Shown piece by piece: positions 63,126-64,000 of a stretch of 64,000 nt of DNA. The first letter of the stretch is position 1. Every line of letters begins with the position of its first letter. The position numbers and the translations under genes were made by a program. Below the pieces are notes generated by a model. The model had not been told where the DNA came from, ran no database searches, and worked only from the letters and a program-made list of their open reading frames with translations. Origin of the DNA: Microbacterium sp. (lineage in GTDB: Bacteria > Actinomycetota > Actinomycetes > Actinomycetales > Microbacteriaceae); NCBI GenBank assembly GCA_019510305.1, contig JAEKKN010000017.1:361382-425381 (forward strand), in the 5' to 3' direction.

Positions 63126-64000
63126 TTTACGGAGAGTTTGATCCTGGCTCAGGATGAACGCTGGCGGCGTGCTTAACACATGCAAGTCGAACGGTGACAT
63201 GCAAGTCGAACGGTGAAGCCCAGCTTGCTGGGTGGATCAGTGGCGAACGGGTGAGTAACACGTGAGCAACCTGCCCCTGACTCTGGGATAAGCGCTGGAA
63301 ACGGCGTCTAATACTGGATACGAACTGGAACCGCATGGTTACTAGTTGGAAAGATTTTTTGGTTGGGGATGGGCTCGCGGCCTATCAGCTTGTTGGTGAG
63401 GTAATGGCTCACCAAGGCGTCGACGGGTAGCCGGCCTGAGAGGGTGACCGGCCACACTGGGACTGAGACACGGCCCAGACTCCTACGGGAGGCAGCAGTG
63501 GGGAATATTGCACAATGGGCGGAAGCCTGATGCAGCAACGCCGCGTGAGGGATGACGGCCTTCGGGTTGTAAACCTCTTTTAGCAGGGAAGAAGCGAAAG
63601 TGACGGTACCTGCAGAAAAAGCGCCGGCTAACTACGTGCCAGCAGCCGCGGTAATACGTAGGGCGCAAGCGTTATCCGGAATTATTGGGCGTAAAGAGCT
63701 CGTAGGCGGTTTGTCGCGTCTGCTGTGAAATCCCGAGGCTCAACCTCGGGTCTGCAGTGGGTACGGGCAGACTAGAGTGCGGTAGGGGAGATTGGAATTC
63801 CTGGTGTAGCGGTGGAATGCGCAGATATCAGGAGGAACACCGATGGCGAAGGCAGATCTCTGGGCCGTAACTGACGCTGAGGAGCGAAATCGTGGGGAGC
63901 GAACAGGATTAGATACCCTGGTAGTCCACGCCGTAAACGTTGGGCGTTAGATGTTGGGACCATTCCACGGTTTCCGTGTCGCAGCTAACGCATTAAGCGC
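63126..64000 (+). rRNA. rrs: 16S ribosomal RNA, 5' part, with 19-bp internal duplication
   Basis: AGAGTTTGATCCTGGCTCAG (E. coli position 8) begins at 63133, so the mature 5' end is near 63126. The 515-region GTGCCAGCAGCCGCGGTAA and the 780-region ATTAGATACCCTGGTAGTCC are present, and the gene runs off the window. The text is actinobacterial and fits Microbacterium. Between 63178 and 63215 the 19-mer ACATGCAAGTCGAACGGTG occurs twice in tandem, whereas normal genes have it once. Confidence 0.97.
63178..63215 (+). repeat. Perfect 19-bp tandem duplication inside 16S rRNA
   Basis: Two identical copies of ACATGCAAGTCGAACGGTG, 63178-63196 and 63197-63215, in the region matching E. coli 16S positions near 50-70. 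One copy is the normal state. Confidence 0.95.

Follow-up and report, generated by a model that had tools for sequence, protein, structure and literature searches.

The 16S rRNA gene at the end of the window, the 64,000-base stretch of DNA analysed here, carries a perfect 19-base tandem duplication that is very probably an artefact of draft assembly. On the available sequence, two pieces sharing a 19-base overlap would have been abutted rather than merged. Four observations together favour this reading: the 16S gene is cut by a contig end; none of the 397 other family genomes searched matches the duplication; the similar 16S cases found in a library of other species are all fragments at contig ends; and the same assembly holds other signs of unmerged overlaps.

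Anatomy and site of the duplication

The duplication had been noticed in a sequence-only reading, which placed it at 63178–63215 in a conserved part of the 5' domain of 16S, stated that a normal 16S carries one copy, and offered either an assembly error at a repeat boundary or a natural variant or insertion as its cause. A match search of the window bears out its description. The unit ACATGCAAGTCGAACGGTG is present twice in tandem with both copies exact, and no third match occurs anywhere in the window at up to two mismatches; in shuffled sequence, the mean was 0.00 matches (100 shuffles). The perfect period-19 run reaches one base further than first described, to 63216, so that it comprises 39 bases with zero mismatches and the copies show no divergence. 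Read from this run, the repeat length can also be given as 20 bases, with a self-overlap of one A. The features of this part of the window are as follows:

63059–63197, plus strand: 139 bases identical to the final 139 bases of contig C26 (a second rrn leader), which stops at the equivalent of 63197
63126–64000, plus strand: 5' part of the 16S rRNA gene, 875 bases including the duplication (RF00177 model positions 1–867 of 1533), cut by the end of contig C27
63178–63196, plus strand: copy 1 of the 19-base unit, exact match
63197–63215, plus strand: copy 2 of the 19-base unit, exact match; the perfect period-19 run extends to 63216

The gene was identified by an Rfam search, in which RF00177 matched 63126–64000 with 818.6 bits as a 3'-truncated hit, and the duplication lies on the plus strand within the 5' domain of this bacterial 16S rRNA gene, before helix 6. 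This 16S would be that of a member of the Microbacteriaceae, perhaps Microbacterium. Another RNA element of the window is a TPP riboswitch at 55486–55597 on the plus strand (RF00059; 60.0 bits, gathering score 54.3).

The extra bases copy their neighbours exactly and add nothing else, and an insertion element or an intervening sequence was rejected on this ground. The proposal that they form a functional insertion, either removed from or retained in the mature 16S RNA, is accordingly very improbable: insertions in rRNA genes are known from other bacteria, for instance CPR bacteria in the portion of the literature drawn on here (PMC11270868), but the fold of the 102-base stretch at the duplication is no more stable than those of its shuffled versions, 62 of 200 of which did as well or better (z = −0.52), so that a special RNA fold was dropped as having no signal, and none of the 397 other family genomes matches.

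Ribosomal RNA fragments at contig ends

The genome is an 86-contig draft of 3,975,550 bases. The window corresponds to C27:361382–425381 and C27 is 425,381 bases long, so both end at the same base, which was not visible to the sequence-only reading. C27 stops inside the 16S gene, 784 bases past the duplicated run. The sole duplicated copy found in the genome thus lies in a truncated 16S gene at the edge of a contig and not in a complete rRNA gene.

A DNA search revealed a second rrn leader on C26. Its upstream part differs from that of the window, and its final 139 bases are identical, beginning at the equivalent of 63059. C26 covers the first 72 bases of 16S and breaks off at the equivalent of 63197, one base past the end of copy 1; this rrn copy therefore stops before the point where a duplication would show. 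The genome holds at least two different rrn leaders, one on C27 and one on C26. A third fragment was found at an end of C12, comprising a 396-base 3' fragment of 23S together with a 5S gene. Three rRNA fragments thus terminate at contig ends, on C27, C26 and C12.

A 16S family search of the genome listed only the place of the window on C27 and missed the 72-base piece on C26, and the 23S family search listed nothing, missing the 396-base piece on C12. Since these searches are insensitive to fragments, no conclusion that the other parts of the operon are missing was drawn from them. The remainder may lie among the 13 contigs shorter than 3,000 bases that were left unread.

An artefact of assembly would be expected to leave a perfect direct repeat at a break point. 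The 39-base run with period 19 is such a repeat, and it lies at a break: C27 ends 784 bases on, and C26 at the equivalent of 63197. In the mechanism that we propose, the assembler would have extended the rrn leader as far as ...ACATGCAAGTCGAACGGTGA (63197) and stopped there, within sequence common to two or more rrn loci. Another piece, made up of 16S sequence opening with the same 19–20 bases, would then have been set end to end behind the first. With the overlap left unmerged, these 19–20 bases would be printed twice. The joining step is what we infer; the contig end, the break of C26, the unmerged overlaps and a further repeat on contig C5 (see below) can be read directly in the assembly.

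The end of C26 does not discriminate between this artefact and a real duplication, as the same break would be expected if one rrn copy truly carried the duplication. Were the 19-base tandem duplication real, it could have arisen through replication slippage, for instance, and would affect one of two or more rrn copies; the others would carry translation, and the variant could be defective, tolerated or silent. The presence of at least two different rrn leaders speaks for this reading. With only one copy duplicated, the two loci would diverge from 63198 onwards, in keeping with a C26 that stops at 63197. Nevertheless, we consider a real duplication improbable. It is the comparative evidence, namely that no other family genome matches and that elsewhere only contig-end fragments were found, that decides between the two readings as far as this is possible.

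Comparison with relatives and family genomes

The relatives search covered 98 genomes, including the genome of the window itself. Matches were obtained in 85 of them; among these, the 30 best-matching loci, from this genome and 29 relatives of the same genus, were read. The spacing from anchor to anchor is 84 or 86 bases in all 29 relatives, each with a single copy, as against 103 (84 + 19) here. The position is conserved in these relatives, which counts against a real duplication and agrees with the earlier statements on the conserved site and on the single copy of a normal 16S. The exact 38-base string occurs in one of the 98 genomes, namely this one.

A wider comparison was made across 398 genomes of the family using two patterns. 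The duplication pattern consists of two copies of CATGCAAGTCGA separated by 0–30 bases, and it matched only the genome of the window itself (1/398); none of the other 397 family genomes matched. The region pattern, which allows 20–50 bases between its two parts, was found in at least 300 of the 398 genomes, own included, or at least 299 of the 397 others; as this pattern alone would accept a duplication too, its count is to be read jointly with that of the duplication pattern. A natural duplication common to relatives was rejected on this count, and a copy shared with another rrn locus was not seen either; C26 stops short of the site. The result in the 397 other genomes also weighs against a real duplication in one rrn copy.

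Similar cases in other species

The duplication pattern was also used to scan a library of species genomes, which holds 84,980 species according to its description and possibly omits the records of the window's own genome. The scan detects only genes with that exact 12-mer and units of up to 42 bases. Five stretches matched, three of which are 16S. They come from a Janthinobacterium scaffold, an Erysipelotrichaceae MAG contig and a Caldiserica MAG contig, with units of 27, 23 and 37 bases, respectively:

L005 7947–8000, minus strand: 27-base perfect tandem duplication in a 16S fragment, same part of 16S
L006 7196–7241: 23-base perfect tandem duplication in a 16S fragment, same part of 16S
L009 4663–4736: 37-base perfect tandem duplication in a 16S fragment, same part of 16S

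The other two stretches, L007 and L008, are without a 16S match and were excluded from the 16S count. L007 belongs to Desulfosporosinus fructosivorans, and at 7788–7843 it carries a 16S-like 12-mer twice, 35 bases apart.

All three 16S cases from the library are fragments truncated by a contig end, which makes four of four when the window is counted. The contig end lies 0, 333 and 380 bases past the duplicated run in the library cases and 784 bases past it in the window. A naturally tolerated variant should also appear in complete genes. That only contig-end fragments were seen, and none of the cases in a complete gene, therefore counts against a real duplication.

Overlaps and tandem repeats elsewhere in the assembly

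If pieces had been abutted at one place, the same error might be met elsewhere in the assembly. Contig ends were compared for 143 of 172 ends (26 read N and three were not fetched). Ten end pairs overlap exactly, by 14, 23, 24, 26, 27, 31, 36, 39, 133 and 139 bases, and seven of these are unmerged overlaps of 23–39 bases. No overlap of 19 or 20 bases is among the ten found at these 143 ends, which speaks against the artefact. The word size of the assembler could not be deduced from the overlaps, because the ten lengths vary.

A scan for tandem duplications was run over about 787 kb of the genome (the window, 360 kb of C27 and the starts and ends of contigs, a small part being counted twice). 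It identified a 47-base perfect tandem duplication at C5:915 (locus L063), inside an MFS transporter gene whose frame it shifts. The two parts of the transporter lie in different frames, and each matches MFS_1. Five places have both flanks of the repeat matched, two in the genome itself (C27 and C4) and three in relatives (G001, G012 and G023); they are homologues with orthology unproven. At these places, the spacing, taken by hand from the match table, is 46–49 bases shorter, which indicates that the extra C5 copy is absent there. The C5 duplication probably reflects an assembly fault like the one proposed for 16S. The check for the same error yielded, as candidates, the seven overlaps of 23–39 bases and one frame-breaking duplication of 47 bases; none of them has a length of 19–20 bases.

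Tandem duplications of a size similar to that in 16S also occur in the genome, at C27:65652, C27:350105 and C19:4224, and could be cited in favour of a real event. Each of these, however, has additional degenerate copies on its flanks, which is typical of old natural repeats and is not seen around the duplication in 16S. For the same reason, the period-18 runs at C27:65652 and C27:65677, and those at C27:350105 (period 19) and C19:4224 (period 17), were rejected as further artefacts; judged by their neighbouring copies, the runs of 17–19 bases at C27:65652, C27:350105 and C19:4224 look natural. A 20-base perfect tandem duplication at C6:1948 (locus L064; run of 21) includes a possible stop codon and may be either natural or an artefact.

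Taken together, of the two causes proposed in the sequence-only reading, the assembly error at a repeat boundary is favoured, given a contig-end fragment, 397 family genomes without a match, library cases that are likewise fragments and other signs of unmerged overlaps in the assembly. The natural variant or insertion found no positive support and is considered improbable.

Known cases and significance

False duplications at the junction of assembled pieces have a precedent in Vibrio fischeri ES114, where, according to the portion of the report used here, contig ends were assembled in tandem instead of being overlapped, as shown by resequencing (PMC2330054). The false expansions of that older genome project measured 318–1264 bases, and several broke reading frames. 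Both cases would have a false duplicate at a piece junction, and the frame breaks resemble that of the C5 transporter. In contrast to the resequencing-proven expansions of V. fischeri, the duplication here measures 19 bases and is known from the assembly alone. In Paenibacillus polymyxa CR1, rRNA operons were located at contig boundaries and in gaps of short-read drafts, with assembly errors nearby (PMC4301005). The rRNA operon fragments at contig boundaries of the present draft are alike in this respect, whereas the passages of that report drawn on here describe rearrangements and gaps and note no short tandem duplication. The insertions of CPR bacteria also place extra sequence inside an rRNA gene. 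Those described in the corresponding portion of that work are separate inserted sequences (PMC11270868), unlike the present case, in which one draft fragment only repeats the 19 bases next to it.

The 16S tandem duplication is most likely not a real biological feature, and no claim is made that such 16S duplications are unreported. If it were real, it would represent a naturally tolerated doubling within a highly conserved part of 16S. The finding calls for caution, as draft genomes can bear false short tandem duplications in the 16S fragments at their contig ends, and the three library cases show the same pattern. Such false duplications could enter 16S reference sets or pass for rRNA insertions.
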